From contig OY282353.1 in assembly GCA_958295465.1 (NCBI GenBank), positions 1,612,001-1,676,000 of the forward strand: a stretch of DNA of 64,000 nucleotides, given 5' to 3'. A program made the translations under genes and the position numbers. Below are positions 39,590 through 58,000 of the stretch, piece after piece. The DNA comes from an uncultured Gammaproteobacteria bacterium. GTDB taxonomy: Bacteria > Pseudomonadota > Gammaproteobacteria > HK1. Under the pieces are notes generated by a model. It saw only the letters and a program-made list of their open reading frames with translations. It made no database searches and was not told where the DNA came from. The stretch's first letter is position 1; the number at the start of each line of letters is the position of its first letter.

Positions 39590-39592
39590 GGG

Positions 39593-40187: not shown

Positions 40188-40216
40188 GGTTCGTCTCCTT
40201 GCTTCTCAACAGTGAG

Positions 40217-40489
40217 TTATCGACGAATACGAGCGCGACAGTGCGAGCTTTCACCCCGCCACTTGACCAGCCGCCCGATAGCGCCCCCGGGCGGCATGAA
40301 GACGCGGACGATCTTTTCGGCGAATCCGATGTCCGTCTTGCTGACGTCGCAGGCGGCATAGGCGACCTTCATGAGATGGGTCTTCCCGGTCCCGTTGGCG
40401 CCGACAAGGACGTTGATGCCGGGCGAGGGCTTGATGTCCAGTGCCTCGAAGGCGGTGAACCGTTCCAGCTTCAGTCTCGTGATCGTCAT
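40217..40489 (-). pseudogene. Truncated copy of the BREX-locus AAA ATPase
   Basis: The first ~80 codons (MTITRLKLERFTAFEALDIK, Walker A GANGTGKTHLMK) are nearly identical to the full gene at 47649-48659, at an offset of 8170 bp. It stops where hicB begins. Walker B and the signature are missing. Confidence 0.9.
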
Positions 40490-40575
40490 GTAGTCGCTCC
40501 CGTGCGGGTCAGCGCCTGGTCCTACCAGAGCAGGAGCTTCCGGTTCTCTTGGAGGACGGTCTCGGGGATCCTTTC
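40490..40575 (-). repeat. Displaced copy of the pglX 3' end
   Basis: The sequence CTCCCGTGCGGGTCAGCGCC and the next ~65 bp repeat the last codons of pglX (LLWYDQALTRTG region, 41467-41560) immediately upstream of the ATPase start. It lacks the rest of the gene. It forms one flank of the inserted vapBC cassette. Confidence 0.85.
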
Positions 40576-40648
40576 GGTGACGTGGCTCGACCGGGGAGAC
40601 GTGGCGCGTACGGCATTGCCGGTGCCGGATGTACGGGCGGGAGTCATG

Positions 40649-41053
40649 TCATGGGGCCGGCAGCAGCCGGAACCCCTGGCGGGCGAAGTCATCATCCAGT
40701 GCGAGTGCTTCCGTCAGTCCGCGGCGGCGCATGAGCTCGAAGCTTGTGCAATCGACCAGCGACAGTTTCCTGCGCCCGGCAGCGAACAGCGAGGCGACCG
40801 CCGCCGCGTGCAGCTCCTCGTCGATCCAGAGCGGCCGGAGCATCGGCACGAGAACATCGGCCAGGGCACGTAGTGCTTCCAGCCCCAAGCGGCGCTGAAC
40901 GAGCGCGAAGGATTCCACCAGAACGTAGTTCGAGGTGAACAGGGCCTTCTCATCGGCGACCGCCCGATCCCAAGTGTCGATCACCTCGGCGTGCCGGGGC
41001 TGATCCGCATCGAGGAACGCAACGAGGGCGGAGGTGTCGACGAAGATGCTCAC
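40649..41053 (-). CDS. vapC: VapC PIN-domain toxin (copy 1)
   Basis: The 134-residue PIN ribonuclease has first Asp in IFVDTSALVAFLD, the Asn-Tyr-x-x-x-E strand SNYVLVESFALVQRR, and late acidic residues in LVDCTSFELMRR and ALALDDDFARQGF. Its ATG overlaps the vapB stop (ATGA). It is almost identical to the copy at 48819. The sequence AGGFRLLPAP closes it at the normal PIN length. Confidence 0.9.
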   Translation of the reverse strand: MSIFVDTSALVAFLDADQPRHAEVIDTWDRAVADEKALFTSNYVLVESFALVQRRLGLEALRALADVLVPMLRPLWIDEELHAAAVASLFAAGRRKLSLVDCTSFELMRRRGLTEALALDDDFARQGFRLLPAP

Positions 41054-41298
41054 GAGTCGAACGCGTCGTCGAGGTAACGATCATGCGCCTCGGCGAGGTC
41101 GGCGGCCCCCGAGCGAAAGCGTCCCTTGAGACCGCGTGCGCGACGAGCGAGCTCCTGCACGTCCGGAGTGCGCCGCCGCGCCAGGTACTCGGCGACGCAC
41201 TCGCGCACCAGCTCGGCGATCGAGCGTTCTTCCCTCCGCGCCTGGGCCTTGAGCGCCCGCGCCTGCTCCTCGGTCAACTGAATCTGGGTTCGTATCAT
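41050..41298 (-). CDS. vapB: VapB-type ribbon-helix-helix antitoxin (copy 1)
   Basis: The 82-residue protein begins MIRTQIQLTEEQARALKAQA, a ribbon-helix-helix N-terminus, then SIAELVRECVAEYL. The C-terminal part (RFRSGAADLAEAHDRYLDD) would wrap the toxin. Start 41298 is chosen since the upstream extension is a fragment of another gene. A palindromic TGCCATCATGATAGC lies just upstream and may be its operator. Confidence 0.88.
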   Translation of the reverse strand: MIRTQIQLTEEQARALKAQARREERSIAELVRECVAEYLARRRTPDVQELARRARGLKGRFRSGAADLAEAHDRYLDDAFDS

Positions 41299-41394
41299 GC
41301 CATCATGATAGCGAATCAGCCGGCATGACGGCATACGCACTTGAAGATCGCCCGATTCATTCCCCGGCGCGGCCCGACCCGAGGCGCAGCCGTG

Positions 41395-41470
41395 GGTCGG
41401 CGCCGCAGGGCTTGAAGTCAATCTTCTCGAAGGCGGCGAAGCGATCCGATTCCAGTCTCGTGCTCGTCAT
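41395..41470 (-). repeat. Displaced copy of the ATPase gene start
   Basis: The reading TSTRLESDRFAAFEKIDFKP follows directly from the pglX copy stop and is a diverged duplicate of the ATPase N-terminus (TITRLKLERFTAFEALDIKP). After ~25 codons it ends. It is the other flank of the vapBC cassette. Confidence 0.8.
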
Positions 41471-42983
41471 GTAGCCGCTCCCGTGCGGGTCAGCGCCTGG
41501 TCGTACCAGAGCAGGAGCTTCTGGTCCTCCTGGAGGACGGCCTCCGGGATCTTCTCCGCGGCCGAGACGATCGTGGCGTAGTCCTGGTCCTGGTATGCCT
41601 TGAAGAAACCGGCCCGCATCGCTTCGAGGCGGAAGAGCTTGAGCTTCCTCTGCGGAGACCGGCGGTACTCCTCGAACTCGCGCAGCAGGATGCGGGCGCG
41701 GCGCATCTCCACGTCGGCCGCCTTGTTGGGGTCGGGCACGTACCAGCGCCCCTTCGCCTTGTCGCGCAGGGCCGGATGGTCCTTGGGCAGCTTCCGCAGC
41801 TCCTTGAAGTTGGTGGAGAGGTAGCCGTGGATCTGGCTCGGGACCTCGCCGGCGCCGTCGTAGTACAGGAAGTTCTGCTCCAGCATCTCGGACAGCTCGG
41901 GCAGCTTCTCGTGCTTCCGCCAGCCCGCGATCTCGCGGAGGAACTGCGGGTGGACCTCCTGGAAGCTCTGCGGCCTCCGGCTCAAGTGCCGCTTGAGCCA
42001 CTGGATGGCGGAGACTTCGTCGACGACGAAGATCTCGATCTGCGCCACGTCCTCGACCGCCGCGCGCTTCCCGTCGTATTCGGCGACCTGATCGGGGAGG
42101 AACACCATGCCGTCGCGCTCGGGGAAGCGTTGGGCGAGGCCGGACAGGAACTCGCCGATCGACAGCGGGACCGCGACGTTGCGCAGCACGTGGAAGGCGA
42201 CCATGCGATCGAAGAGCAGATGCGGCTGCCGTTCGTTGACGACCTCGACGCGGCCGCCCTTGCGCACGAACACCGGAAGCTGGCCGAGATGGGTGCGGAC
42301 GAAATCCCAGGCGCCTTCCTCGGTGCCCTTCTCGAGGGCGAAGCGTTCCTCCAGCCCGTCGTTCGGCTTGTAGGCGGAGATCACGAGGTCCTGCTTGACC
42401 GCGGTACTGGTGACCTGCCGGTAGGAGCCCTGCTGCTTGTCCATCGTGCGCACGTCGGCGACGACGAAGCCGGCCGCGAGGAGGGCTTCCTGGATCGCGG
42501 TCCAGACCGCGTTCCGGGAGTTGTGGAAGACGACCGTGATCCAGCGCCCCGGCTTGAGCACCCGCCGGTATTCCTCGAAGCAGCGCTGCATCAGCCGCTG
42601 GTACTCGGGCAGCCCCTTCCCCTTGAAGCGATCGACGATAGCCTCGGGCGCGGGGTTGGTCAGCACCCGGTGCCAGGACTCGACCAGGAAGTTGAGATCG
42701 GCGTAGTAGATGTTCTCGCCGAACGGCGGGTCGGTGAAGACGTAGTCGATCGAATCGTCGGGGATCCCGAGCGATGCGGTCGTGCTCGCGGTCGCGATGC
42801 AGGAGGACGTTCGTCGGGCACCTGCTCTATCGAACGCCTTGACCAGCCGGGACAATTTGTTTCCAAGATTGTATCGGGGAGAGACTTCGGAGATCTGCGA
42901 TGCGACATAGTAGACGCCGGTAAGATGCTGATTGATTTGAGAATAGTGTGTCGGCACGTATCGGGCGAGAATCGACATGCCCC
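41467..42983 (-). pseudogene. 3' half of a second pglX
   Basis: About 505 codons nearly identical to the last half of the intact pglX at 49.6-52.7 kb, including TDPPFGENIYYADLNFLVES. Similarity ends abruptly at 42983, so the SAM-binding motif I half is missing. It lacks the 84-bp internal duplication found in the intact gene. An internal ATG (MSILARYVPTH) could allow translation, but such a product could not bind SAM normally. Confidence 0.9.
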
Positions 42984-43300
42984 CATGAACACGATGCCGG
43001 GGAGCAGCGCGGCCGGGTGGCTGGCGTTCCGGTGCATGACGGCGCGGGTCCTCGGGGTCGCCAATACGATCACGCTCCGGCTCGGGGCCAGGAAGTTCCG
43101 CCCACTCCCGAAGACGGCCGCGGAACCGCTACGATTCGGCGTCCGGACCCGGGCGATTGGAATACCGCGAAATCGATGCGTGAAGCCGTGTTTCGAGGCA
43201 TGGCGGGAATTTCCGGTTCGGAGCCGGGCGCGAGTTGACGCGCTTGCGCCGCGCTCTCGACAATGGCGATTGTACCGCCGATCAGCAGGATGCCATTCCC
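42984..43300. other. Duplication breakpoint region, no gene recognised
   Basis: Unique sequence between the pglX breakpoint and the DUF938 gene. No reading frame resembles a family. The DUF938 start could be extended to TTG 43235 but conserved sequence begins at 43301. Confidence 0.4.
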
Positions 43301-43897
43301 GTGAAGCCGTTCGCCCCCGCCTGCGAGAGGAACAAGGAGCCGATCCTGGAAGTGCTGCGCCGGGTGTTCGGCGACGCGGGCGACGTGATCGAGATCGGCA
43401 GCGGCACCGGCCAGCACGCGGTGTGGTTCGCGGCGGGGCTGCCGCATCTCGTGTGGCGGACGAGCGATCTGCCGGAGAACCACGCGGGGATCAACGCCTG
43501 GATCGACGAAGTGGGGCTCGACAACGTGGAGCGCCCGCTCGCCCTCGACGTCGCGCGCCACCCCTGGCCGCTCGCGAGCGCCGGCGGCGCGTTCAGCGCG
43601 AACACCGCGCACATCATGCACTGGCCGGAGGTCGAGGCGATGTTCGGCGGTCTCGCCGAAGTGCTGTCACCCGGCGCGCGCTTCGCGCTCTACGGCCCCT
43701 TCGCCCGCGACGGCCGTCATACCAGTGCGAGCAATGCCGCGTTCGATCGATCGCTGCGGGTGCAGGACCCGGGCATGGGGGTGCGTGATCTGCGCAACCT
43801 GGAACGGCTCGCGGCCGGCGGGGCGATGGCACTCGAGGACGACGTCGCGATGCCCGCGAACAACCATATCCTCGTGTGGCGGAAGGCGCCGGGTTGA
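43301..43897 (+). CDS. DUF938 family SAM-dependent methyltransferase
   Basis: The 198-residue protein starts at GTG (KPFAPACERNKEPILEVL) and has SAM-binding motif I in VIEIGSGTGQHAVWFA and a second motif in FSANTAHIMHWPEVEAM. DUF938 proteins are small class I methyltransferases of unknown substrate. It is the only gene on the plus strand between BREX parts other than the intron ORF, and sits inside the duplication join, so it probably arrived with a rearrangement or marks an ancestral neighbour. Confidence 0.85.
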   Translation: MKPFAPACERNKEPILEVLRRVFGDAGDVIEIGSGTGQHAVWFAAGLPHLVWRTSDLPENHAGINAWIDEVGLDNVERPLALDVARHPWPLASAGGAFSANTAHIMHWPEVEAMFGGLAEVLSPGARFALYGPFARDGRHTSASNAAFDRSLRVQDPGMGVRDLRNLERLAAGGAMALEDDVAMPANNHILVWRKAPG

Positions 43898-44451
43898 CTG
43901 CGGGCAGGCGTTCCCATCGACTTCGGCAGAGCTGGAACCGGGCGATATCTACAGATTTAGTGCGCCGTGCCAAGGCGCCATTCCTCAGCGGGTGCGAATC
44001 CCGCCCGGCAACTGTCGCTCCAGCCGGTAGCAGTCGGAGCGGTTGATGAAGGTAACGACATGGACTGAAGCACTCCGATGAGACGGGTCGCGACAGGCGA
44101 CTCAGCGACCATGCGGGCCGCAACGCGAGTGAACGCCGAGCAGGCCTCGAAACTTATGATGCGGAAGCCGACCCGCCTGAATCTCGGGGAAGGCTGGCAT
44201 CGGTCGGGAAGCGAGCGACGGACGCACCGGCCGGTTCCGCCGGGGTAGTGGCGGCGGCACGTATGGAGGAGGGGGATGGACGCAACACGGGAAGCCCCGG
44301 CGGTGGCATGGCACGTGCCAACCGGCGGCCTGCGAGGGACAGGCCGGGCCGTTCGGGGTGGCGGAGAGGCCCGTAGTACCGTGGAAACTGGGTAATGCCG
44401 GCTGAGGGAAGGGGCCTTGGTTCGAGAGGAGCGCAAGAAGGAGGAAGGGAG

Positions 44452-45792
44452 ATGGGGACTGGCAAGAGCCTAACAGCCCCGGAACGAGTTCGGAGACTCC
44501 GGGCGGCGCTACATGCGAAAGCGAAGGAAGCTGCGGGCTATCGGTTCTATACGCTGAGCGACAAGGTGTGGCGCGACGATGTGTTGTTGGTCGCCTGGGG
44601 TGAGGTCCGTCGTAATGGCGGAGCGCCCGGGGTGGATGGCGAGACGGTGGCGGACATCGAGGCGCGAGGCGTGGAGCGGTGGCTTGGGGGACTGGCGCGG
44701 GAGTTGAAGGAAGGGACCTACCGGCCCAAGGCGGTTCGGCGGGTGTGGATTGCGAAGAAACAACGCGGGAAGTATCGGGCACTGGGCATTCCCTGCCTAC
44801 GGGACCGGGTGGCGCAGACGGCGGCGTTGCTGGTGTTGTCGCCGATAGTCGAAGCGGACTTGGCCCCGGAGCAATACGCCTATCGGCCAGGGAGAAGCGC
44901 ACACGATGCGGTCAATCAGGCGCATCGGCTGGTCAATACGGGCCACTGCGAGGGAGTGGACGCGGATTTGTCGGACTACTTCGGCCAGATACCGCACGCC
45001 GAACTGCTCCACTGCGTCGCCCGTCGGGTCAGTGACGGGCGGATGTTGGGCTGGGTGAAGGCGTGGTTGGAGATGGCGGTCGAGGAAGACGACGGGCGAG
45101 GCGGCACCCGCCGCACGAACCGGGCGCGTCGGGAGAGGAAGGGGACCCCGCAAGGGGCGCCGATTTCTCCGCTGCTGAGCAACCTGTACATGCGTCGCTT
45201 CGTATTGGGCTGGAAGGTGTTGGGGCATGCCCAACGGTTCAAGGCGGACATCGTCAACTACGCCGATGACATCGTCATCCTTGGCAAGGAGTCGGCGGCG
45301 GCGATGCGAGAAGCGGTCGAGGACATGCTGAAGCGTCTGAAACTGCCGCTCAACGCCGAGAAGACCCGATGCGTGCGTGTTCCGGAGGAATCGTTCGACT
45401 TCCTTGGCTACCGGGTGGGACGCAACTATCGCCGGGATACGGGCCGGGCCTACATCGGCACGCGCCCCACACAGGCGAGCGTGCAGAGCATCTGCCGCAG
45501 GGTAAGCGAGCTGACGGCGCGACGATATGGGCGGCTGGACCCGGAAGTGGTGGTGGGGCGGCTGAACCGGCTCATGACCGGATGGGCGAACTACTTCCAC
45601 CTGGGACAAGTGAGCCCGGCTTACGCCGCGATTGACCGGCACGCGACCCGGCGGCTGCGCCGGTGGCTTTGTCGCAAGCACAAGGTTCGAGCCGGGGGAT
45701 ATGTGCGTTTCCCGGACCGGCGCCTATGGGAAGACCTGGGGCTGACTCGCCTTGCACCGCGAACGACGAGCTTTCCGTGGGCGAAGGCATGA
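44452..45792 (+). CDS. ltrA: Group II intron reverse transcriptase/maturase
   Basis: The 446-residue protein has reverse transcriptase blocks: RNGGAPGVDGETV (RT-0/1), KQRGKYRALGIPCLRDRVAQ, AYRPGRSAHDAV, GTPQGAPISPLLSNLYM (RT-4) and the catalytic YADD at 270-273. A maturase domain X with LMTGWANYFHLG follows. No C-terminal HNH endonuclease domain is visible. It should splice its intron and prime mobility from replication forks or nicks. The start at 44452 has AGGAAGGG upstream. Confidence 0.93.
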   Translation: MGTGKSLTAPERVRRLRAALHAKAKEAAGYRFYTLSDKVWRDDVLLVAWGEVRRNGGAPGVDGETVADIEARGVERWLGGLARELKEGTYRPKAVRRVWIAKKQRGKYRALGIPCLRDRVAQTAALLVLSPIVEADLAPEQYAYRPGRSAHDAVNQAHRLVNTGHCEGVDADLSDYFGQIPHAELLHCVARRVSDGRMLGWVKAWLEMAVEEDDGRGGTRRTNRARRERKGTPQGAPISPLLSNLYMRRFVLGWKVLGHAQRFKADIVNYADDIVILGKESAAAMREAVEDMLKRLKLPLNAEKTRCVRVPEESFDFLGYRVGRNYRRDTGRAYIGTRPTQASVQSICRRVSELTARRYGRLDPEVVVGRLNRLMTGWANYFHLGQVSPAYAAIDRHATRRLRRWLCRKHKVRAGGYVRFPDRRLWEDLGLTRLAPRTTSFPWAKA

Positions 45793-45835: not shown

Positions 45836-45957
45836 GATGAGCGGGGGTGTGGAAACGCGGCTATGGCACAGACTGAGGCACCGGCACAAGGCGAAAGCAG
45901 CCGGCAAACAGCGACTCTCCATGCCTACGGCAAGGCGCGCCACTCCCCGACTCTACC

Positions 45958-47124
45958 ATCCATGCCGGGGATCGTCGCGCCGACGGTCTCCGCGAGGCGG
46001 CGGAGGCGGCGCCGCCGGTCCGCCTCGGGATCGATGCGGATTCCGACCGCCGCCCATTCACCGCGAAGCACGTGGCCGGACTCGTGGGAAACGGGGCGCA
46101 GCATCCCTTCGACGAACAGGTTGTCGATGTAGACGCGGACGTCCTCATGGTCAAAGGGCAGGTCTGCGGGTCCGCCGATGGCGAAGCCGGGCGTCCCTTC
46201 CCCCTCTTGCCGGTCGCCGTCCCCGGCGTTGCATGACGTCGTGCGGCTTGTCTGCGCGGGACGACGAGCTTCTGCGCCCTGCCGGTCGCCGCCCCCGACG
46301 TTGCCCGCCAGATGGTCGAGATCTTGCGGGCCGCCGCTCCCGGCGTTGCCCGCCAAGCGGCGAAGATCTTTCGGGCCGCCGCCCCCGGCGTTGTCCGTCA
46401 GGCGGCCGAGATCTTGCGGCCCACCGTTCCCGGCGTTGCCCGCCAGGCGGTCGAGAAACAGGGGCCAGCGCTCCTGAAGAAAGGCGAAGAAGGCATCCCG
46501 ATCCGGAAAGATGGCCTCCAGCGGCCAGGCAGCGAAGGCGCCGCCTTGCCGTAGCAACTGCACCAGCCGATCGTCCAGGAGGCGCGGCAGCCGCTGCCCT
46601 CGGTAGTGCCTCCGCAACAGGAGGCGCAGCAGGTCGGATGGGCGCCGGACGAGCTCGGGCGCGAAGTCGAAGACGTGCCGAAGCACGAAGTCCCTGGTCG
46701 CGTCCTCGCCGAGCCGGTCCGGCCGGTGGCGTTCCTGCGCTCGGTGGAGCGCGTCGAGGTCGCTACGGTCGAGCGACGCGACGACCGGGTAGCTGAAAGC
46801 GGGAAACAGGTCGTCCAAGCCGAAGGAAAGCCGCCGACCGGCCTGCACCAGATCGTAGGGAAGCGCCGCCGGATCGCGGCTTCCGGTACGCACGACGAGT
46901 TCGAGGCCGGCGCCCTCGCTCCGATCCCAGCGAGACCGGAACCTCAATTCGTAGTCGAGGCGGAATGCAACGTGATCCTCGAAGGTGACGATCTCGAAAC
47001 CTCTCCCGCGGACAGCTTCGAGGAGGGCGGCTTCAAGCAGCAGGCCATCGGGATCGGCCACCAGGGTCAGGCGCGCAACCCCCGGCGTGAGTTCCGTCAG
47101 GATACGGTCGCGCCAGTCAGGCAC
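45958..47124 (-). pseudogene. 5' half of a second pglZ, with amplified internal repeat
   Basis: From GTG 47124 (PDWRDRILTELTPG) about 390 codons match the first half of the full PglZ; similarity stops at ~45958. The phosphatase domain is gone. Where the full copy has one LAGNAGNGGPQDA, this copy has at least three 15-residue units (LAGNAGNGGPQDLGR, LTDNAGGGGPKDLRR, LAGNAGSGGPQDLDH) and further decayed ones. It is more diverged from its twin than the pglX/vapBC copies are from theirs. Confidence 0.88.
46210..46460. repeat. 45-bp tandem repeats in pglZ copy 2
   Basis: Units such as GTTGCCCGCCAGATGGTCGA...CCCGGC recur every 45 bp three or four times, with degenerate copies to the left. The full pglZ at 38.7 kb has a single unit. 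Confidence 0.85.
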
Positions 47125-47141
47125 TGGACAGGCCCGCGGTG

Positions 47142-47645
47142 CTACGGGATGCGCGACAACGGGAAGCGAGGCTGGTGTCGGTTCCACGTGTCGATGTTGA
47201 ACACCATGCAGCCCGTGACGATCCGCCGCTTCCATTCTCCGGACGGCGGTCCCTTCAGCGGGAGCCCGCGCCTCAGATCGTCCGTTCGTGCGAAAAGCTC
47301 AGCTTCGGTCAGCTTGTCCAAGGCGATGATGACCCAGTAGTAGATCGGTTTATCGACGCGCTCGGATGCCCACTGATAAAGGAAGGTATCGCGGTATTTG
47401 TATTTCAGATTTTCATCCAGCTTTCCAGATCGAAATTTCTGGATGAATTTACTACTTCTCTCTGCCGCGGCATTCGGATGATCCGGATCCTTGATTTCGA
47501 TGAACGATATGCGAGCGGCCTCCTCGACGATGAAATCCACTGCTTTCATACAAGGCAGACTATGAGATTTCGGATCGTCGAACTTTCTGGCCTTCGCACT
47601 CCGGGGAAAAGTAATTTGGAGATTGCCTTCGCGCAGCGTGGTCAT
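47142..47645 (-). CDS. Candidate PD-(D/E)XK-like protein paired with AAA ATPase
   Basis: The 167-residue protein starts 3 bp after the ATPase stop. AVDFIVEEAARISFIEIKDP holds Asp37 and Glu50-Ile-Lys52, spaced as in D-x(n)-E-x-K nuclease sites; the strand context (SFIEIK) supports it. Further conserved-looking aromatics are in DTFLYQWASERVDKPIYYWVIIALD. No named family was recognised. ATPase plus nuclease-like pairs are a common defence layout; a nuclease role is inference. Present only in the right-hand copy of the duplicated BREX segment. Confidence 0.6.
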   Translation of the reverse strand: MTTLREGNLQITFPRSAKARKFDDPKSHSLPCMKAVDFIVEEAARISFIEIKDPDHPNAAAERSSKFIQKFRSGKLDENLKYKYRDTFLYQWASERVDKPIYYWVIIALDKLTEAELFARTDDLRRGLPLKGPPSGEWKRRIVTGCMVFNIDTWNRHQPRFPLSRIP

Positions 47646-47648
47646 TGT

Positions 47649-48659
47649 TTACTTGCCCCCCAGACTGCGTTCGACCTCGCGGTCGTACAGGTTGGTGAAC
47701 GCTTCGGCGATGGTGTTGGGATGGATGTCGAGATAGGCGCGGGCCGTTTGGCAGGCGATCTCGCCGCCCTCACGATAGAGGGAATAAAAAACGAGCTTGT
47801 CCTCTTGCTTCCTTTGTAGATCCAGTTCCTTGAGAACAGCGTAGTCATGGGTGGCAAGGAATATCTGGACTCCCTTACGCTGCAATTCGAGAAGAATTTT
47901 GACCACCGCCCCGAACAGCTTGGGATTGAGATTGGTTTCCGGTTCGTCCCAGAAAAGCACCGACCCTTCGAGCAGCGTTCCGTTCTGGATCAACAGCCAT
48001 AGCAACCCCAGCTTGCGCATCCCCTCGGCGAGTAACGAGAATTCCAGGTTTCCTTGTCTGCTGCGAAGAAAAAACTCTTCGTTCTTCGCATGGACTCTTC
48101 CGTCGATCGCCTTCTGTAGAATAGTGAGCAAGCGTTTGCGTTCGCCAGGCGCAGGGCCGCGCAAGGCAGGCCGATAGGCGCGGTCGAGAATGTCCGCGTA
48201 CACCTCCTCGAAATGGATCTCCCGTTGCGCATAGAGAGAACGGAATCCCGGAGCATTCGCGAGCATTTCCTTCACCGGGACGTAGACGCCTTCGATGGGC
48301 TCGGTTCTCCAACGCCGTGCGCCACGGACAATGGCCGAATCCGCCGCGATGGTGTGATTCGAGAAGAAAGCCCGAAGCAGTCGATCTCCGCGCCGAATAC
48401 GAACGGCGCAACGCGAGCTTTCACCGCGCCGTTTGACGAGCCGCCCGATGGCGCCCCCGGACGGCATGAAGACGCGGACGATCTTTTCGGCGAATCCGAT
48501 GTCCGTCTTGCTGACGTCGCAGGCGGCATAGGCGACCTTCATGAGATGGGTCTTCCCGGTCCCGTTGGCGCCGACAAGGACGTTGATGCCGGGCGAGGGC
48601 TTGATGTCCAGTGCCTCGAAGGCGGTGAACCGTTCCAGCTTCAGTCTCGTGATCGTCAT
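47649..48659 (-). CDS. AAA family ATPase in BREX locus (full copy)
   Basis: The 336-residue SMC/OLD-like ATPase has Walker A GANGTGKTHLMK (~32-43), Walker B in SVLFWDEPETNLNPKL and switch HDYAVLKELD in FLATHDYAVLKEL. It has no fused nuclease; the downstream 167-residue protein is the likely partner. The C-terminus (DLYDREVERSLGGK type) is basic. It sits in the BREX operon between vapBC and the second pglZ copy. Only its first ~80 codons exist in the left duplicate. Confidence 0.85.
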   Translation of the reverse strand: MTITRLKLERFTAFEALDIKPSPGINVLVGANGTGKTHLMKVAYAACDVSKTDIGFAEKIVRVFMPSGGAIGRLVKRRGESSRCAVRIRRGDRLLRAFFSNHTIAADSAIVRGARRWRTEPIEGVYVPVKEMLANAPGFRSLYAQREIHFEEVYADILDRAYRPALRGPAPGERKRLLTILQKAIDGRVHAKNEEFFLRSRQGNLEFSLLAEGMRKLGLLWLLIQNGTLLEGSVLFWDEPETNLNPKLFGAVVKILLELQRKGVQIFLATHDYAVLKELDLQRKQEDKLVFYSLYREGGEIACQTARAYLDIHPNTIAEAFTNLYDREVERSLGGK

Positions 48660-48745
48660 GTAGTCGCTCCCGTGCGGGTCAGTGCCTGGTCCTACCAGAG
48701 CAGGAGCTTCTGGTCCTCCTGGTGGACAGCCTCCGGGATTCCTTC
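48660..48745 (-). repeat. Displaced copy of the pglX 3' end (right copy)
   Basis: CTCCCGTGCGGGTCAGTGCC and the following bases repeat the last codons of pglX (49637-49720) just upstream of the full ATPase, as at 40490 in the left copy. Confidence 0.85.
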
Positions 48746-48818
48746 GGCGACGTGGCTCGACCGGGGAGACGTGGCGCGTACGGCATTGCCGGTGCCGGAT
48801 GTACGGGCGGGAGTCATG

Positions 48819-49223
48819 TCATGGGGCCGGCAGCAGCCGGAACCCCTGGCGGGCGAAATCGTCATCCAGCGCGAGCGCGTCCGTCAGTCCGCGGCGGCGC
48901 ATGAGCTCGAAGCTCGTGCAATCGACCAGCGACAGCTTCCTGCGCCCGGCGGCGAACAGCGAGGCGACCGCCGCCGCGTGCAGCTCCTCGTCGATCCAGA
49001 GCGGTCGGAGCATCGGCACGAGAACATTGGCCAGGGCACGTAGTGCTTCCAGCCCCAAGCGGCGCTGAACGAGCGCGAAGGATTCCACCAGAACGTAGTT
49101 CGAGGTGAACAGGGCTTTCTCATCGGCGACCGCTCGATCCCAGGTGTCGATCACCTCGGCGTGCCGGGGCTGATCCGCATCGAGGAACGCAACGAGGGCG
49201 GAGGTGTCGACGAAGATGCTCAC
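48819..49223 (-). CDS. vapC: VapC PIN-domain toxin (copy 2)
   Basis: The 134-residue product is nearly identical to copy 1; visible differences are conservative (for example ALANVLVPML for ALADVLVPML and GLTDALALDDDF for GLTEALALDDDF). All PIN acidic residues are kept. It overlaps vapB copy 2 by ATGA. Since either VapB should neutralise either VapC, the modules are presumably cross-immune. Confidence 0.9.
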   Translation of the reverse strand: MSIFVDTSALVAFLDADQPRHAEVIDTWDRAVADEKALFTSNYVLVESFALVQRRLGLEALRALANVLVPMLRPLWIDEELHAAAVASLFAAGRRKLSLVDCTSFELMRRRGLTDALALDDDFARQGFRLLPAP

Positions 49224-49468
49224 GAGTCGAACGCGTCGTCGAGGTAACGATCATGCGCCTCGGCGAGATCGGCGGCCCCCGAGCGAAAACGTCCCTTGAG
49301 ACCGCGTGCGCGACGAGCGAGCTCCTGCACGTCCGGAGTGCACCGCCGCGCCAGGTACTCGGCGACGCACTCGCGCACCAGCTCGGCGATCGAGCGTTCC
49401 TCCCTCCGCGCCTGGGCCTTGAGCGCCCGCGCCTGCTCCTCGGTCAACTGAATCTGGGTTCGTATCAT
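49220..49468 (-). CDS. vapB: VapB-type ribbon-helix-helix antitoxin (copy 2)
   Basis: The 82-residue antitoxin differs from copy 1 by few residues (YLARRCTPD versus YLARRRTPD). It has the same start context and the same upstream palindrome near 49470-49490. It is translated with vapC copy 2. Confidence 0.88.
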   Translation of the reverse strand: MIRTQIQLTEEQARALKAQARREERSIAELVRECVAEYLARRCTPDVQELARRARGLKGRFRSGAADLAEAHDRYLDDAFDS

Positions 49469-49561
49469 GCCATCATGATAGCGAATCAGCCGGCATGACG
49501 GCATACGCACTTGAAGATCGCCCGATTCATTCCCCGGCGCGGCCCGACCCGAGGCGCAGCC

Positions 49562-49640
49562 GTGGGTCGGCGCCGCAGGGCTTGAAGTCAATCTTCTCGA
49601 AGGCGGTGAACCGATCCGATTCCAGTCTCGTGATCGTCAT
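49562..49640 (-). repeat. Displaced copy of the ATPase gene start (right copy)
   Basis: Immediately after the pglX stop the sequence encodes TITRLESDRFTAFEKIDFKP, a diverged duplicate of the ATPase N-terminus, then ends. With the 48660 fragment it brackets vapBC copy 2. Confidence 0.8.
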
Positions 49641-52600
49641 GTAACCGCTCCCGTGCGGGTCAGCGCCTGGTCGTACCAGAGCAGGAGCTTCTGGTCCTCC
49701 TGGAGGACGGCCTCCGGGATCTTCTCCGCGACCGTGATGATCGTGGCGTAGTCCTGGTCCTGGTATGCCTTGAAGAAACCGGCCCGCATCGCTTCGAGGC
49801 GGAAGAGCTTGAGCTTCCTCTGCGGAGATCGGCGGTACTCCTCGAACTCGCGCAGCAGGATGCGGGCGCGGCGCATCTCCACGTCGGCCGCCTTGTTGGG
49901 GTCGGGCACGTACCAGCGCCCCTTCGCCTTGTCGCGCAGGGCCGGATGGTCCTTGGGCAGCTTCCGCAGCTCCTTGAAGTTGGTGGAGAGGTAGCCGTGG
50001 ATCTGGCTCGGAACCTCGCCGGCGCCGTCGTGGTACAGGAAGTTCTGCTCCAGCTCCTTGAAGTTGGCGGAGAGGTAGCCGTGGATCTGGCTCGGAACCT
50101 CGCCAGCGCCGTCGTAGTACAGGAAGTTCTGCTCCAGCATCTCCGACAGCTCGGGCAGCTTCTCGTGTTTCCGCCAGCCCGCGATCTCGCGGATGAACTG
50201 CGGGTGGACGTCCTGGAAGCTCTGCGGCTTCCGGCTCAAGTGCCGCTTGAGCCACTGGATGGCGGAGACTTCGTCGACGACGAAGATCTCGAGCTGCGCC
50301 ACGTCCTCGACGGCCGCCCGTTTCCCGTCGTATTCGGCGACCTGATCGGGGAGGAACACCATGCCGTCGCGTTCGGGGAAGCGCTGGGCGAGGCCGGAGA
50401 GGAATTCGCCGACCGACAGGGGAACCGTCACGTTGCGCAGCACGTGGAAGGCGACCATGCGATCGAAGAGCAGATGCGGCTGTCGTTCGTTGACGACCTC
50501 GACGCGGCCGCCCTTGCGCACGAACACCGGAAGCTGGCCGAGATGGGTGCGGACGAAATCCCAGGCGCCTTCCTCGGTGCCCTTCCCGAGGGCGAAGCGT
50601 TCCTCCAGCCCGTCGTTCGGCTTGTAGGCGGAAATCACGAGGTCCTGCTTGACCGCGGTGCTGGTGACCTGCCGGTAGGAGCCCTGCTGCTTGTCCATCG
50701 TGCGCACGTCGGCGACGACGAACCCGGCCGCGAGCAGGGCTTCCTGGATCGCGGTCCAGACCGCGTTCCGGGAGTTGTGGAAGACGACCGTGATCCAGCG
50801 CCCCGGCTTGAGCACCCGCCGGTACTCCTCGAAGCAGCGCTGCATCAGCCGCTGGTATTCGGGCAGCCCCTTCCCCTTGAAGCGATCGACGATGGCTTCG
50901 GGCGCGGGGTTGGTCAGCACCCGGTGCCAGGACTCGACCAGGAAGTTGAGATCGGCGTAGTAGATGTTCTCGCCGAACGGCGGGTCGGTGAAGACGTAGT
51001 CGATCGAATCGTCGGGGATCCCGAGCGATGCGGTCGTGCTCGCGGTCGCGATGCAGGAGGACGTTCGTCGGGCACCTGCTCTATCGAACGCCTTGACCAG
51101 CCGGGACAATTTGTTTCCAAGATTGTATCGGGGAGAGACTTCGGAGATCTGCGATGCGACATAGTAGACGCCGGTAAGATGCTGATTGACTTGAGAATAG
51201 TGTGTCGGCACGTATCGGGCGAGAATCGACATGCCCCAGATGGCTTGCTCGACGAAGTAGAGGAGCATGTGGCGAACGCGGGAATCGGAGTGAGCGTTGG
51301 CCTTGCGCCACATCGCCGCCAGGGCGTGCGCGGCGCGGGGAAGAAAGAAATGATGGGCGTGTGTGACCCCCTTCGGCGCCAGACGCGAACCGTGATACAT
51401 GCTTTCGATCGGGATCCGTATCGTCGGAACCTCCATTGAAAGGGGCGTTTCCTCGATACGCCGCAGGACGTCCCGATCGCCGGCATCCGGTGTTTTCGTG
51501 AACCTTCGGCCGTCCACCTTGTACCGGATCAGCGCCGGTCTGAAGGTCACGTGTTTCCATAACTGCCCGGTATCCGCGTCCATATCGGATTGAAACACCC
51601 GCTCCAGATTGTTCTTGTTCAGCAAAGAATCGCAGTCGGGACACGCAAAGACATCGCTGACCCTGCCGGTTGCCCGATCCAGTGCTTCTTCCAGGAACAC
51701 GATCTCGCTGGTGCATTCGGGGCAGGAAAACACCTCGCTCCAGACGGTGTAGTCGATCCGTCCCTTGGTCTTCCCGTCCGAGTGCAGGGTCTCGTACATC
51801 CAGCCGAGCTCTTCCTCCACCTCGTCGAGCAACGCGCGGCCGGCGTCGGCGAACTCGGCGACGTCGAAGGGAAGGGTGTAGTTGGCGGCGATGAAGCCCG
51901 CGGCCGGCGACAGATCGTTCAGGATCGCATGGCGGGCGCCCCAGCGCGGCTTCCCGAACCCTTCCCCGGACCACAACGCTTCAAGGGACTTCCGCCAGCT
52001 CTCCGGCGCGGTCCCGCACCATTGCGCGGCGACGCCGGTCATGCCGGAGCCGGCGAATCCGTCCAGCACCAGATCGCCGGGCTCCGTGTAGTGGAGGATC
52101 GAGGGCACGATCGCCAAATGCGGCACCTTGGTGTGATAGCCGTGCGCCCGGTAGACGGGGTGGGTCTTGCCCTCGCTGACATCGACCGCGAAGGGCTTGC
52201 GGCGATAGGGCTCGGCGGGGTCGCAAGGCCGGCCGTGCGCCTCCACGAACGCGCCCAGGAACGGGTTCGGACAGGCGGTGTGCCAGGGCGGGTCCGACAG
52301 GCTCAGGAGGTCGTCGATCTCACCGTGGGGAAACCCGGTCTCGTCCTTCCAGCGTTGCAGCAGGTCTTTCGACGAATCGGCTCGCGCCATGCGCTCGGCG
52401 AGACTGCGAAGCCGGCCTTCGTCCCCCATCGGCCAGTGCGCGACGGCCGCCAAGCGGGCGATCGTGTCGTCGATGCCGGAGAAGGGCACGCCGGCGAGCG
52501 TGGCGTGCAGCTCCTCCAGACCCTTCTTCAGCTCGCCGAGAAAATGGGCGCGCCGCGCCGCCTCGTTCTCGAACGTCAGGCCCAGGCATTCGACCGGCCG

Positions 52601-52711
52601 GTCGCGCGCGGCTTCCGCGGCCTCCTCCCGGGCCTTCTCGAACAACCCGTCCTGCCCCGAAGGGTTTCGCAACGACCGGCCGGCCTCGCGGTTCGTCTTG
52701 CCGCGCGCCAT
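49637..52711 (-). CDS. pglX: BREX PglX-like DNA methyltransferase (full copy)
   Basis: The 1024-residue methylase has SDPPWHTACPNPF near 139-151, the SAM site LVLDGFAGSGMTGVAAQ at ~214-230, a CPEC...CPDC metal-binding pair at ~330-360 and the catalytic TDPPFGENIYYADLNFL near 570. It resembles type 3 BREX methylases, which mark host DNA at N6-adenine. An 84-bp in-frame duplication (LEQNFLYYDGAGEVPSQIHG twice) lies near 50035-50120 and is absent from the partial copy. Gaps to its operon neighbours are 3-5 bp. Confidence 0.9.
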   Translation of the reverse strand: MARGKTNREAGRSLRNPSGQDGLFEKAREEAAEAARDRPVECLGLTFENEAARRAHFLGELKKGLEELHATLAGVPFSGIDDTIARLAAVAHWPMGDEGRLRSLAERMARADSSKDLLQRWKDETGFPHGEIDDLLSLSDPPWHTACPNPFLGAFVEAHGRPCDPAEPYRRKPFAVDVSEGKTHPVYRAHGYHTKVPHLAIVPSILHYTEPGDLVLDGFAGSGMTGVAAQWCGTAPESWRKSLEALWSGEGFGKPRWGARHAILNDLSPAAGFIAANYTLPFDVAEFADAGRALLDEVEEELGWMYETLHSDGKTKGRIDYTVWSEVFSCPECTSEIVFLEEALDRATGRVSDVFACPDCDSLLNKNNLERVFQSDMDADTGQLWKHVTFRPALIRYKVDGRRFTKTPDAGDRDVLRRIEETPLSMEVPTIRIPIESMYHGSRLAPKGVTHAHHFFLPRAAHALAAMWRKANAHSDSRVRHMLLYFVEQAIWGMSILARYVPTHYSQVNQHLTGVYYVASQISEVSPRYNLGNKLSRLVKAFDRAGARRTSSCIATASTTASLGIPDDSIDYVFTDPPFGENIYYADLNFLVESWHRVLTNPAPEAIVDRFKGKGLPEYQRLMQRCFEEYRRVLKPGRWITVVFHNSRNAVWTAIQEALLAAGFVVADVRTMDKQQGSYRQVTSTAVKQDLVISAYKPNDGLEERFALGKGTEEGAWDFVRTHLGQLPVFVRKGGRVEVVNERQPHLLFDRMVAFHVLRNVTVPLSVGEFLSGLAQRFPERDGMVFLPDQVAEYDGKRAAVEDVAQLEIFVVDEVSAIQWLKRHLSRKPQSFQDVHPQFIREIAGWRKHEKLPELSEMLEQNFLYYDGAGEVPSQIHGYLSANFKELEQNFLYHDGAGEVPSQIHGYLSTNFKELRKLPKDHPALRDKAKGRWYVPDPNKAADVEMRRARILLREFEEYRRSPQRKLKLFRLEAMRAGFFKAYQDQDYATIITVAEKIPEAVLQEDQKLLLWYDQALTRTGAVT
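50035..50120. repeat. 84-bp in-frame tandem duplication in pglX
   Basis: Adjacent 28-codon units encode EQNFLYYDGAGEVPSQIHGY and EQNFLYHDGAGEVPSQIHGY followed by LS(A/T)NFKEL. The partial pglX at 41.5 kb has one unit, so the second arose after the segmental duplication or was lost there. Confidence 0.9.
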
Positions 52712-52714
52712 TGC

Positions 52715-55069
52715 TCAGCCCCCGCCTGCGTGGCGGGCCTTGAGCGCGGCCCCGGCCTCGGTCAGCACGTAGGCCTGATGCGGGTGGTTGGGCCGGTCCG
52801 GGTGGGTCATGCGGAGCACGCCGCCCCACAACAGTGGGTCCAGATGGGCGCGGCGGAAAAAGGCCCGGTGGCTCAACCCCAGTTCGCCCATTACTTCCGC
52901 CATGGTACGGGGGATGTCGCAGAGCGCCACGATCTTCCACTGGATCGGCGATAGCTCGGTCAGAGGCGCAGCTTGGGCACTGGACAAGTCGGGTGCGTCC
53001 GACCCAACTTGGTCGGTGACCAACCTCTCCGCGGGCACATCAGCTTGGTCAGTGACCAACCTCTCCGCGGGCGCATCGACTTGGTCAGTGACCAACCTCG
53101 CCCCAGGCACATCAGCTTGGTCAGTGACCAACCTCGCCCCAGGCACATCAGCTTGGTCAGTGACCAACCTCGCCCCAGGCACATCAGCTTGGTCAGTGAC
53201 CAACCTCGCCCCAGGCACATCAGCTTGGTCAGTGACCAACTTCGCCCCAGGCGCATCAGCTTGGTCAGTGACCAACTTCGCCGCAGGCGCATCAGCTTGG
53301 TCAGTGACCAACCTCTCCGCAGGCACATCAGCTTGGTCAGTGACCAACCTCGCCGCAGGCACATCAGCTTGGTCAGTGACCAACCTCGCCGCAGGCGCAT
53401 CAGCTTGGTCAGTGACCAACCTCTCCGCAGGCACATCAGCTTGGTCAGTGACCAACCTCTCCGCAGGCACATCAGCTTGGTCAGTGACCAACCTCGCCCC
53501 AGGCACATCAGCTTGGTCAGTGACCAACCTCTCCGCAGGCGCATCAGCTTGGTCAGTGACCATGTCCGGTTGTCCGGCGCTGCTCCGGCCAATTCGGCCG
53601 AGTCGTCCCGCGAGATGCCCGGCGACGGCGAACACCGGCGCTCCGGTTCCTTCCAGTGGCGATATGAGCGCCTGGACGACCAGACGCTCCAGGACCGCCT
53701 GTACGTCGGCGCCGGAAAGACCCGTGACGGCACGCACGTCGCGCGGGCGTAACCTGCCCTCACGGCAGGCGAAGGCGAAAGACCTGGCCTCGGCCTCGTC
53801 GAGGCGAACGCCGAGGCTGGCCTGAAACAGAAGCTGCTCTTCGGACAGGAGCTCCTCCTTGAGGAGGGTCAATTGGAATGCCTTCCGAGCCTTGTCGTTG
53901 TCGACGATCGGCGGAACGCGCCCGAGCCTCCGCCAGCGGTCGAAGATGGCGCGGATGCCGGTCCCGGCCTGTTCGCTCAAGCCTATGCGGCGGAAAGCGG
54001 CGACGATCCTGGGGTTGCGGACCTCCTTCTCGCCGGGATCCAGGAGTTCCTCGGCCGATGCGAAAGTGTCACCCGGATTCCACAACAGCGTACGGTCGTC
54101 GAAGAACCGGATCGACGGCTTGCGGGTATGGTCGGCGTAATCCTGATGGATCAGCAGATTGATCGCAGCCTCCCGGAAAGCGACGTAATCCGGCGGCCGG
54201 TCGGCCCGCCGCAGTGTTTCGGGATCGACGGAAAAAGGCTTCTCGGCGCGCTGTTGATAGCGATCCACGAGCGCCCTCCAGGCCTTCACGAGATTGGCCT
54301 CGATCACCAGCCGATCGGCCCAGCGTTCCTCCGGCAAGTCCTCCGACCAGTCCCCGCGGTGCCACTGCCAGTCCACGACGGGGCGGGGCAGCACCTGGCG
54401 GAACGCGGGGTCCACGCCGAACAGGAGGACCGCCGCGCGCGTCGGCAGCAGCCGGCCGCCGGTTTCGACGATCAGACCCCAGTGGTGGAGGAACTCCAGG
54501 TGCGGCAGCGACTCGTCGCGGTCCGGGTTTCGGTCGTAAAAGCGTGTCCGATACCAGCGCACGGACTCGTCGTCGAAACAACGCCCGGGATCGAGATCGA
54601 CGGTCTCCGCATCGTAGCGCTCGTCCGCCGCGTCGCGGAGAAGCCGTTCGATCTCACCCTGGGTGCATTGTTCGTCGCCGGCACCGCGGCGGATGAACGA
54701 CTTTCGGATATCGCCGCCGAGATAGACCGGCTTGTCCTGCCTGCGCGCCTCGGGGATGTGGAAGACGAGAAGCGCCTTGCCGTCTTCTTCGATCAACTGC
54801 TCCTTCGCCGCGACGACGCGATTCAACTTCTGGCCGGCACGGAGGACGTTGAGGAAGTCGTTCTGGATCTGGTCCACTTTCGGAACGCCGACGATCTCGA
54901 AGCCGCCCCCGACTTCCCGGACGCCGAAGACCAGCCAGCCGCCCTTGGTATTCGCGAAGGCGGAAACCGTCTCATAGGCGGACTTGGGAACGCCCCCATG
55001 GGCCTCCTTGACCTCGACGTCGGTCCACTCGTACCCCTTGAGGCGTTCGATGATCTCCTCCCGTTCCAT
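52715..55069 (-). CDS. AlbA/Schlafen-type ATP-binding protein with 12-residue repeats, BREX-embedded
   Basis: The 784-residue protein has an AlbA_2 domain at ~1-150 (WTDVEVKEAHGGVPKSAYET, SAFANTKGGWLVFGV). A HATPase-like region lies at ~290-400 (REAAINLLIHQDYADHT, EQAGTGIRAIF), followed by wHTH segments. About 15.5 copies of a 12-residue unit (LVTDQADVPGAR) come at ~500-690, then a C-terminal wHTH. Such proteins often act as nucleic-acid-binding regulators. It is 6 bp from brxC and 3 bp from pglX. The repeats probably form a flexible acidic linker. Confidence 0.82.
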   Translation of the reverse strand: MEREEIIERLKGYEWTDVEVKEAHGGVPKSAYETVSAFANTKGGWLVFGVREVGGGFEIVGVPKVDQIQNDFLNVLRAGQKLNRVVAAKEQLIEEDGKALLVFHIPEARRQDKPVYLGGDIRKSFIRRGAGDEQCTQGEIERLLRDAADERYDAETVDLDPGRCFDDESVRWYRTRFYDRNPDRDESLPHLEFLHHWGLIVETGGRLLPTRAAVLLFGVDPAFRQVLPRPVVDWQWHRGDWSEDLPEERWADRLVIEANLVKAWRALVDRYQQRAEKPFSVDPETLRRADRPPDYVAFREAAINLLIHQDYADHTRKPSIRFFDDRTLLWNPGDTFASAEELLDPGEKEVRNPRIVAAFRRIGLSEQAGTGIRAIFDRWRRLGRVPPIVDNDKARKAFQLTLLKEELLSEEQLLFQASLGVRLDEAEARSFAFACREGRLRPRDVRAVTGLSGADVQAVLERLVVQALISPLEGTGAPVFAVAGHLAGRLGRIGRSSAGQPDMVTDQADAPAERLVTDQADVPGARLVTDQADVPAERLVTDQADVPAERLVTDQADAPAARLVTDQADVPAARLVTDQADVPAERLVTDQADAPAAKLVTDQADAPGAKLVTDQADVPGARLVTDQADVPGARLVTDQADVPGARLVTDQADVPGARLVTDQVDAPAERLVTDQADVPAERLVTDQVGSDAPDLSSAQAAPLTELSPIQWKIVALCDIPRTMAEVMGELGLSHRAFFRRAHLDPLLWGGVLRMTHPDRPNHPHQAYVLTEAGAALKARHAGGG
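53006..53565. repeat. 36-bp tandem repeat array, ~15.5 copies
   Basis: The unit ACCTCGCCCCAGGCACATCA plus GCTTGGTCAGTGACCA recurs with no spacers. Variation is limited to a few positions that give Val/Ala, Pro-Gly/Pro-Ala and Arg/Lys/Glu changes. Neighbouring copies 10-13 are identical, as expected from recent slippage or unequal exchange. It is inside the coding sequence and in frame. Confidence 0.95.
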
Positions 55070-55075
55070 CGGCGC

Positions 55076-58000
55076 CTACTCCAGCACCAGCCGGACCTTG
55101 TCCGGCTCCTCGCCCCTGGCGAGGTCGTCCAGGTAGCGTTCGAAGCGCTGCTTCATCTCGGCGGGGCTCGCGGGCGAGCCGCCGGCGAGGAGGGCGGCCT
55201 TCACGTCCCCGGTCTTCACCACGACCTTGACGAGGCCGGACAGGACCTCCCGGAGGGCCTCGATGAAGCCCCGCCCCAGAGGATCGGGAAGCTCCCCCCG
55301 CTCCACGAAGGCGTCGATCCGCTCCCTCTGCTCGGGCTTGAGCAACGACAGGTTCTCGCGCGTCGCGGGCGCGTCGAGGTTGGTGAGCAGCGTCCGCGTC
55401 CAGCCGGCGAGAAGCTCGTCGAGCTCGTCGTCGAGCCGCGCGAGGGTCGCGCCGGCGGCGGCACCAGAGGCGCCGGGCACCGTTTCCAACGCGGGCCTGA
55501 ATTCGCAGTGCGGGCAGATCGGAGAGGCGGCGATCTCCTCCCTGGTGAGCGCAAAGCAGCTCTCCAGCCCGGCGAGGCGGTTCAGGTAGTCGGTCAGATG
55601 CTGGACGGGCATGAGGTCGATGCCGGAGAGCAGATGGAGCCGGGCGAGCCGGTCGTCGCGCAGCAGCGCGGATTTCCGCTCGTCCTCGTTCACGCCGAGC
55701 CGGGCCTTGGCGTGGAGGCCGAGGTAGATGCCGGCGAAGGCATTCTTCAGGTCGTCCAGAGTGCGCAACGCCTCCCGGCGGAAGGGTGCGGCCTCGCGAC
55801 GGGACGGGCACGCGATCTCGGCGAACAGCTCTTCACGCGCCTTCCTCATCCGCTTCACCCATTCGTGGGACGGCGGGAGCGCCGCTTCCGCCGCGGTGAG
55901 GAACGCGGCGGCGGCGCCCAGCTCCGAAGCGAATTCCCGGAGGGTCTCGACCCGGGCGAGGGAGTCGAGCCCCTCCCGATAGCCGTCCACCTCCTTCGCC
56001 TCATGGCGGAAGTTCTTGAGGCGGCCGGGCGAGTTGTAGCCCTGGAGGGATTCGAGAAAGGACTTGGTCCGTTCCAGGTCCGGGCGGAGGCTCTCGGCTC
56101 CGTCTCCGTCGATCAGGTTCCTGCCCCAGAACGGGATGCCGCCCTGGAGGGCGTGATGGGCCACGGCCAGCCTTCCGACGAGCCGGGCGACGGCTCTCTG
56201 GAGCTCCTGGATCGGCTCATCCTTGCCCTCGATGACTAGGTTCGCCATGCCCGGGCTCAGCCCCAGCAGCGCGAACAACGCCTTGAGGGCCGGAAGGTTC
56301 CATTCCTTGGGCCGCTCGACGTGCTTGAAGTGGACGAGCTCGTCGAGCGGCGTGGTGGCCAGCGCGGCCAGGCCGGCGGCATCGAACTTGCGGCCGGGAA
56401 CGGCGAGCACGAGGTCGCCGGAATGGACCAGCGCCGCGAGCAGGACCACGGCCCATTCGGGTTCGAGGCGCAGGGTCTCCGCGGCCAGGTACTCGACGCC
56501 GAGCCGCTCCTGGATGAGCTCGGAACGGTTGACGACTTGGCCGTGCCCCTTTGCGCGCATCCGTTCGAGGATGTGATCGGCATATTTCGACCGGGAGGGG
56601 TCGAGCCGGTCGCCGTCGAGGAGTTCGAGCGCATCGAGGACCGCGGTGGCCTGCTTCGTCTTCGTCGCCCCCGCGATCCGGCGCAGCGCGTCCTGGGCCG
56701 CCTGGGCGCGGTTCCAGGACGTGATCAGCACCGCGAAGCCCGGATAGTCCGGCGCCTGGTCGGCGAAGTGCGTCTCCAGGCAGATGCCCGCCACCGCGTT
56801 GACCAGATCGCGCAAGTTGATGCGTTCGGCCGGGGAGATCCCCGAGAGCTCGCGAAGGGAATGGCCCCTGGCCCATTCCGGCAACCTCTTCCGGCGGCCC
56901 TGGTAGACGACCTCGAAGGCCGAGGCCATATGTCCCTGCAGCCAATTGACCAGATCGCGAAGGAAACTCGTGGCCTTCGACTGGTAGGTGGCTTTCGCGT
57001 GGCCCGAGGACGTCGAGGCCAGATCGAGGGCCGCCGCATAGCCGCGCAGTGTGCCGCGGAAGCAGTCGTCCGCGCCGCTCAGGTGGAAGAAGACCTCGTC
57101 CGCCGCCTTCTCGTCCCTGAAGTGCGGCGCGTCGTGGGGCGGGATGAAATAGAGGTAGAAGTCGCGCGGCGGCACCGCCGTGGACCGCTCGTTCGGCGCC
57201 CCGAAGAACAGGTATCCCTGGCGCGCCGCCCGGCGCCCGCGCCATTCGAGCTCGTGCTCCCAGATCCGGTAGCCGGTGACATAGGTCTCGTCGGTGCACT
57301 CCATCACCCGCCGCAGGGCGTCGTAGTAGTAGCGGTCCAGCCGCGCCGCATCGAGGCTCTCGGCCCGCTTCTCGATCAGGGCGTCGAAGTCGTCGCTCTT
57401 CTTGAGGTCGAGGTAGTACTGGCGGTTGTCCGGGTTGGACGAAACGAACTGCCCGCTGACCGTCCGGTGGATCTCCCGGAGCACCGTCTCCACCTGTGAC
57501 AGCAGGTCGTCGGCGGGGTCTCCGCCGAGGTCCTCGATCCCCGGCTGGTACAGGCAGAGGCTGTCCCTCAGCTCTTCCGCAGTGGCGCCCAGACGGGCGT
57601 GGATGTCGCCGGTGGTCAGGCGGTGCACCGACAAGGCATGGATGACCCGCAACGCCATCGGCTTGTACGCCGGCCGCGTATATGCCTGCTCGATGCGCGA
57701 TTCGAGCACCTGGCTGCAATCGATGACCGCCTTGATGTCGGGGACGGCGCGGAAGGAGGCGTCCTCCCGCAGCACGGACCAGTAGCCGTCATAGGCGATG
57801 AGACCGGGGTGGTCCGCGGGAAGCTCCTGCCCCAGCCGCCGCTTCATCGAGCGCGACAGGGTGCGGAGGATTTCGCGCTTCTCGACCGCGGTCACCCGCT
57901 CGAAGGTGTCGATATAGTCGGGATGGACCGGGAACAGGGCCACGTACTCGTCCATGCGCTCGTTCATGCGCCCGTAGAAGCGGGCGAAGGGCGCGAGGTA

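Follow-up and report, generated by a model that had tools for sequence, protein, structure and literature searches.

The closest tested analogue of the gene pair described here is WonAB, an OLD-ABC ATPase and a small PD-(D/E)xK protein carried by the WASA-1 prophage (PMC12137116). WonAB defence requires both genes and the nuclease lysine, and infection is aborted with translation arrest; WonB toxicity depends on WonA, and the system does not restrict incoming phage DNA (PMC12137116). PD-T4-4 has a two-gene organisation of ATPase and nuclease similar to that of WonAB (PMC12137116). Rakesh and Krishnan (2026; PMC12839542) describe by comparative genomics a class of OLD-ABC ATPases paired with HNH, PD-(D/E)XK or PIN nucleases in BREX and propose that such pairs act as backup suicidal effectors; the paper also records a known link between PARIS and BREX inhibition by Ocr. 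HEC denotes Hma-embedded candidate, a set defined in a preprint by Payne et al. (2024; doi 10.1101/2024.01.29.577857; cited in PMC11411939; also PMC12988326). Both the catalogued HEC-02 family and the OLD-ABC/PD-(D/E)XK pairs in BREX described in 2026 (PMC12839542) are already known. The literature searched contained no published functional test of HEC-02.

The window (the whole 64,000-nucleotide stretch of DNA that was analysed) carries an intact member of the catalogued candidate defence system HEC-02. Two open reading frames follow one another on the minus strand, the first encoding a 336-residue ATPase (HEC-02A, 47649-48659) and the second a 167-residue protein (HEC-02B, 47142-47645), with 3 bases (47646-47648) between the ATPase stop codon and the next ATG. 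Both proteins match the HEC-02 profiles of PADLOC-DB 2.0.0 over their full length, and the order and immediate adjacency of the two genes agree as well. The first-pass annotation of this DNA had given the same protein lengths, the same 3-bp spacing and a D37...E50-I-K52 pattern in the smaller protein, all of which were found as claimed. It had not recognised the family of the small protein, a point that needs correction: a profile search, as it proposed, identified the pair as HEC-02B and HEC-02A, the former an already catalogued family (PDLC04229).

HEC-02A is an ABC ATPase of the OLD/PtuA/SMC type with intact motifs. Residues 1-334 of 336 align with positions 1-335 of the 337 in PADLOC profile PDLC04213 (E 4.5e-126), and the protein contains Walker A (GANGTGKTH), Walker B (FWDEPETNLNP) and H-loop (TH) motifs. 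The nucleotide-binding and catalytic positions are all intact in the window protein, and G30-x4-G35-K36-T37, the signature E212-G213, D238-E239 and H271 are conserved in 66-68 of 68 homologues. An AlphaFold2 model (pLDDT 85.8) gave Septu PtuAB (8eea) as its best Foldseek match (E 1.7e-13). In structural comparison, Z values of 18-20 were shared by SMC heads, retron Eco7/Ec78 PtuA and Rad50. The earlier description of the protein as an SMC/OLD-like ATPase agrees with its resemblance to Septu and retron PtuA, SMC and Rad50.

HEC-02B matches PADLOC PDLC04229 over its whole length (E 4.2e-58, residues 1-166 of 167). Searches of Pfam, NCBIfam and PHROGs returned no family name for it, and sequence searches of the PDB returned no match. 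The sequence around the motif is CMKAVDFIVEEAARISFIEIKDP, with D37, E50, I51 and K52 in place; the motif segments read CMKAVDFI...ISFIEIKDP, the first holding D37 and the second E50 and K52. D37 and E50 were invariant in all 53 homologues compared, and position 52 was lysine in 52 of them and arginine in one. Judged by this conservation of D37, E50 and K52 in the aligned sequences, the D37...E50-I-K52 pattern is not a chance occurrence. F22, C32, K34, V36, K83, D86 and Y90 were likewise invariant across the 53 sequences.

An AlphaFold2 model of HEC-02B built from the 53-sequence alignment had a pLDDT of 91.5 and a pTM of 0.88. Its strands at residues 38-41, with D37 at the start, and 46-52, which holds E50 and K52, place the conserved D...(D/E)XK motif on the expected core strands. 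The top rows of a VIA-align comparison were mostly PD-(D/E)XK enzymes, with moderate scores (best Z 6.4 over 120-127 residues): Nt.BspD6I 6.4, BstEII 6.4, McrC 6.3, Can2 6.2, FokI 5.9 and Shedu 4.5, with EcoO109I and Cdn1 also among the best rows. Foldseek gave no match to the model at E <= 1e-3; the evidence for the fold is therefore the VIA-align comparison together with the conserved motif. HEC-02B is accordingly a protein with a predicted PD-(D/E)XK nuclease-like fold and conserved catalytic residues. The structure prediction suggested in the first-pass annotation agrees with the proposed PD-(D/E)XK fit, in that the confident model contains such a core, resembles mostly restriction-type nucleases and carries the motif where it is expected.

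Comparison with described systems separates the pair from Septu, PARIS and PD-T4-4 by the identity of the partner. Septu PtuAB and retron Eco7 (Ec78) PtuAB are the top Foldseek matches of HEC-02A (Z about 19-20 over 271-304 residues), but their PtuB nuclease is an HNH protein whereas HEC-02B has a PD-(D/E)XK pattern; the PtuB profile did not match HEC-02B at E <= 1, and the retron versions additionally have a reverse transcriptase and an ncRNA. PARIS (AriAB), too, has a separate nuclease beside its OLD-type ABC ATPase, and HEC-02A matches the AriA profile (E 9.2e-23); its AriB effector, however, is a TOPRIM (DUF4435) protein, and neither the AriB profile nor Pfam TOPRIM matched HEC-02B. For PD-T4-4, HEC-02A matched the PD-T4-4_A profile weakly and over the core only (E 1.8e-10), and the PD-T4-4_B profile had no match to HEC-02B at E <= 1. 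We claim no membership of Septu, PARIS or PD-T4-4, since searches for the partner features of these systems (PtuB HNH, AriB TOPRIM and PD-T4-4_B, respectively) gave no match in HEC-02B.

By analogy, WonAB is likened to HEC-02 for its combination of an OLD-ABC ATPase and a small PD-(D/E)xK partner; the catalytic positions are K34/E300/H333 in WonA and K71 in WonB, compared with K36/E239/H271 in HEC-02A and K52 in HEC-02B. WonAB is prophage-borne and lies outside BREX, whereas the window pair lies in a BREX cluster. The pair has the same architecture and the same genomic setting as the OLD-ABC and PD-(D/E)XK dyads of PMC12839542, and it fits that class. The name HEC-02, on the other hand, refers to embedding in Hma, whereas the host here is a type 3-like BREX cluster. 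The resemblance to sensor-effector defence pairs pointed out in the first-pass annotation agrees with the PADLOC assignment, with the class in PMC12839542 and, by analogy, with WonAB (PMC12137116). We file the pair as HEC-02, probably WonAB-like in its action, and claim no membership of WonAB.

Three surveys of the gene neighbourhood, of the kind proposed in the first-pass annotation, bear out that the two genes keep together. A HEC-02B relative was found in 54 genome contigs and was adjoined by HEC-02A in 53 of them; the contigs come from Pseudomonadota, Chloroflexota, Planctomycetota, Myxococcota, an archaeon (Methanocalculus) and others. The sole contig without an adjacent ATPase, L063, holds a decayed remnant: all but the last residues of the ATPase have been deleted, and the HEC-02B left there is truncated and has T instead of K52. 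In a phylum sample of 398 genomes, HEC-02B occurred in 17 (the window's own genome included) and was adjoined by HEC-02A at 18 of 18 places (the window's place excluded). When the search began with the ATPase, a small gene with the same D...ExK pattern, or E...ExK at distant loci, lay directly downstream at no fewer than 24 of 29 loci. Distances among HEC-02A proteins correlated with those among their HEC-02B partners (Mantel r 0.80, 68 pairs, none of 999 permutations as high). The dN/dS ratios relative to the closest relative, L011, were 0.33 for HEC-02A and 0.39 for HEC-02B, indicating that both genes are under purifying selection. HEC-02A and HEC-02B are a near-obligate, co-inherited two-gene unit. 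No HEC-02B was detected in 50,697 phage records; viral contigs yielded one, at a locus that carries a BREX cluster. A second, divergent HEC-02-type pair stands alone in the window's own genome (G000:C1:2439684-2441152; L010:272-1504 and 1501-2025); its genes overlap, match PADLOC PDLC04146 and PDLC04145, and encode the motif KAVDIL...LVEIKD.

Within the window, the pair belongs to a BREX cluster read on the minus strand in the order BrxC, AlbA_2/Schlafen protein, PglXI, RHH-PIN, HEC-02A, HEC-02B, PglZ and BrxA. BrxC (DUF6079; 55076-58816) was identified by PADLOC PDLC02482 (1907 bits) and Pfam PF19557. It is followed by a Schlafen AlbA_2/HATPase_c_4 protein (52715-55069; PF04326, PF13749), which has the same place in L011 and L045, and by a complete type 3 BREX methyltransferase, PglXI (49637-52711; PDLC02541, 1328 bits). 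The AlbA_2 gene contains a tandem repeat of about 36 bp (53005-53562) encoding repeated VTDQADxPxxRL units. A VapBC-like pair (48819-49468) consisting of an RHH antitoxin (49220-49468; PF01402) and a PIN toxin (48819-49223; PF01850) lies between PglXI and HEC-02A, as it does in L011. The window pair is thus placed between pglXI and a truncated, right-hand copy of pglZ (45925-47151, with homology from about 47121), whose best PDLC02558 stretch covers only the first ~228 positions of the profile. A complete pglZ is present as the left copy (37349-39400; PDLC02558, E 7.7e-282), and BrxA is encoded at 36573-37352 (PDLC02444, E 4.1e-75). These PADLOC matches to the type 3 components BrxC, PglXI, PglZ and BrxA confirm the BREX setting noted earlier. 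A BrxHII/BrxH helicase was not found in the window or in the L011 cluster; the helicase matches that the window's genome does have are partial and located elsewhere. The host cluster is a type 3-like BREX system whose operon lacks a BrxHII helicase.

Part of this cluster is duplicated. Positions 48391-51237 recur at 40221-42983 with 97% identity, and part of pglZ is repeated as well (91%); L011 has the same gene order without the duplication. The left duplicate has lost the pair, as the first-pass annotation had stated: what remains of the ATPase is its first ~90 codons (40217-40489, minus strand), the rest of the gene is gone, and there is no second copy of HEC-02B. In the place of HEC-02, the left duplicate (39424-40489) holds a PIN fragment, a HicA-like fragment (PF07927) and the 90-codon ATPase remnant. 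Two plus-strand genes lie between the BREX copies, a DUF938 SAM methyltransferase-like gene (43235-43897) and a group II intron reverse transcriptase/maturase (44395-45792), the latter adjoining the truncated pglZ.

Two direct repeats of roughly 150 bp, both on the minus strand, flank the RHH-PIN pair. The first (49577-49736) comprises the PglXI tail and a decayed HEC-02A start and is 87% identical to the second (48596-48754), which comprises a decayed PglXI tail and the working HEC-02A start. The PglXI stop codon overlaps the ATG of the decayed ATPase start (ACATGACG), and the working start comes after RHH-PIN. The insertion and the repeated PglXI tail are also present in L011. We infer that PglXI probably overlapped HEC-02A by ATGA in the ancestral layout, with HEC-02B next, and that the toxin-antitoxin insertion split them later.

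Association with BREX was then counted across HEC-02 loci. The pair lay in or beside BREX at 23 of 75 loci (16 of 54 genome contigs, the single viral contig, both plasmids and 4 of 18 phylum-sample places) and mostly stood alone at the others. The genome contigs were found with a BREX-embedded query and are therefore biased towards BREX, making the phylum-sample figure (4 of 18) the fairer one; some loci (L034, L043 and L060) lie at contig ends, where 'beside' BREX is the most that can be claimed. Because BREX clusters take up a small fraction of a genome, the frequency of HEC-02 in BREX should be far above chance, a judgement made informally rather than against a formal expectation. Three different places in the operon were seen for HEC-02, across two BREX types: between PglXI and either BrxH or PglZ in type 3, between BrxC and PglX in type 1 (L084, L085, L090 and L094), and between PglX and PglZ in a third arrangement (L062, L096 and L101). 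On a quickly built ATPase tree with several long branches, the state inside or outside BREX changed at least 12 times. At one locus (L012:936-2198) HEC-02 adjoins a DUF4007 protein, which PMC12839542 assigns to type 4 BREX as its BrxA-like part; this is possibly a further BREX type carrying HEC-02. In clusters that also contain HEC-02, another candidate defence ATPase (HEC-01A at L023:4410-5570, or a close tblastn match to it in L083) lies between BrxC and PglXI, indicating that several embedded modules may occur together in a single BREX operon. Most copies of HEC-02 outside BREX are not in defence islands; their neighbours are mostly housekeeping genes, with few defence genes, and to that extent a defence reading fits less well.

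We consider it moderately probable that HEC-02 is an ATP-gated nuclease effector that acts like WonAB, aborts infection and backs up BREX. HEC-02A would dimerise around ATP and bind the HEC-02B nuclease. Infection would be sensed by HEC-02A, perhaps as phage inhibition of BREX, and HEC-02A would then license HEC-02B to cut nucleic acid, either DNA or RNA; the cutting may abort the infection in a WonAB-like manner. The module would work alone and would have been taken repeatedly into BREX operons as a backup. If HEC-02 resembles WonAB, the requirement of WonB toxicity for WonA favours ATPase-activated cutting over simple sequestration, with RNA a possible target. We count against this reading the moderate structural matches of HEC-02B (Z 6.4) and its lack of a PD-T4-4_B match, as well as the drop in the correlation of HEC-02A and HEC-02B distances to r 0.52 among the 52 nearer pairs.

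A possible but doubtful explanation is that HEC-02 performs auxiliary restriction within or beside the BREX restriction step, with HEC-02A recognising invading or BREX-unmethylated DNA and HEC-02B cutting it while the host is spared. The placement of HEC-02 immediately next to the BREX methyltransferase gene, on one side or the other, in all three arrangements is consistent with this, as is the resemblance of the modelled HEC-02B fold to restriction nucleases such as Nt.BspD6I, BstEII and McrC. Most loci, however, have no adjacent BREX and few defence genes, so the marking of self and non-self by BREX cannot be a general feature, and the analogue WonAB spares incoming phage DNA (PMC12137116). 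It is also conceivable, though unlikely, that HEC-02 has, in BREX operons, the specific task of detecting when BREX fails: HEC-02A would monitor a BREX component (the PglX/BrxX or BrxC complex) and release HEC-02B when phage proteins block BREX.

An arrangement resembling a toxin-antitoxin system, in which HEC-02B acts as a free toxin that HEC-02A does no more than silence, appears improbable. Near-obligate pairing, operon overlap and the combination of a small nuclease with a larger partner would suit it. The conserved catalytic residues of the ATPase, however, argue for a use of ATP beyond sequestration, and toxicity in WonAB needs the ATPase (PMC12137116). An asymmetry in which HEC-02B is never intact without HEC-02A was considered as a sign of such a system and rejected, because draft assemblies show both break patterns: HEC-02A is broken and HEC-02B open in L029, L038 and L040, and HEC-02A is intact and HEC-02B broken in L103 and L117.

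A housekeeping role as a Rad50/SMC-like nuclease of DNA repair or recombination we likewise regard as improbable. The HEC-02A model is structurally as close to Rad50/SMC heads as to PtuA, many copies lie among housekeeping genes, and some Chloroflexota keep the pair in conserved places; against this stand the patchy distribution (17 of the 398 sampled genomes), the repeated embedding in BREX with copies on BREX-carrying plasmids, and the loss of the pair from the window's own duplicate. Least probable of all is a passenger gene pair without present function, briefly kept in a rearranged cluster: the duplication and the truncation of the right-hand pglZ beside the intron reverse transcriptase would fit, but both genes are open, retain all catalytic residues and have the low dN/dS ratios (0.33-0.39) measured against L011.

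The survey provides the HEC-02 family with a defined catalytic motif, statistics on the pairing, a proposed mechanism based on the predicted folds, and three BREX positions by the methyltransferase gene in two BREX types. Sensing of BREX failure, if it were true, would explain the repeated recruitment of HEC-02 beside pglX in type 1 and type 3 BREX. The survey also makes a specific question testable, namely whether HEC-02 is an ATPase-gated nuclease that backs up BREX under phage inhibition.
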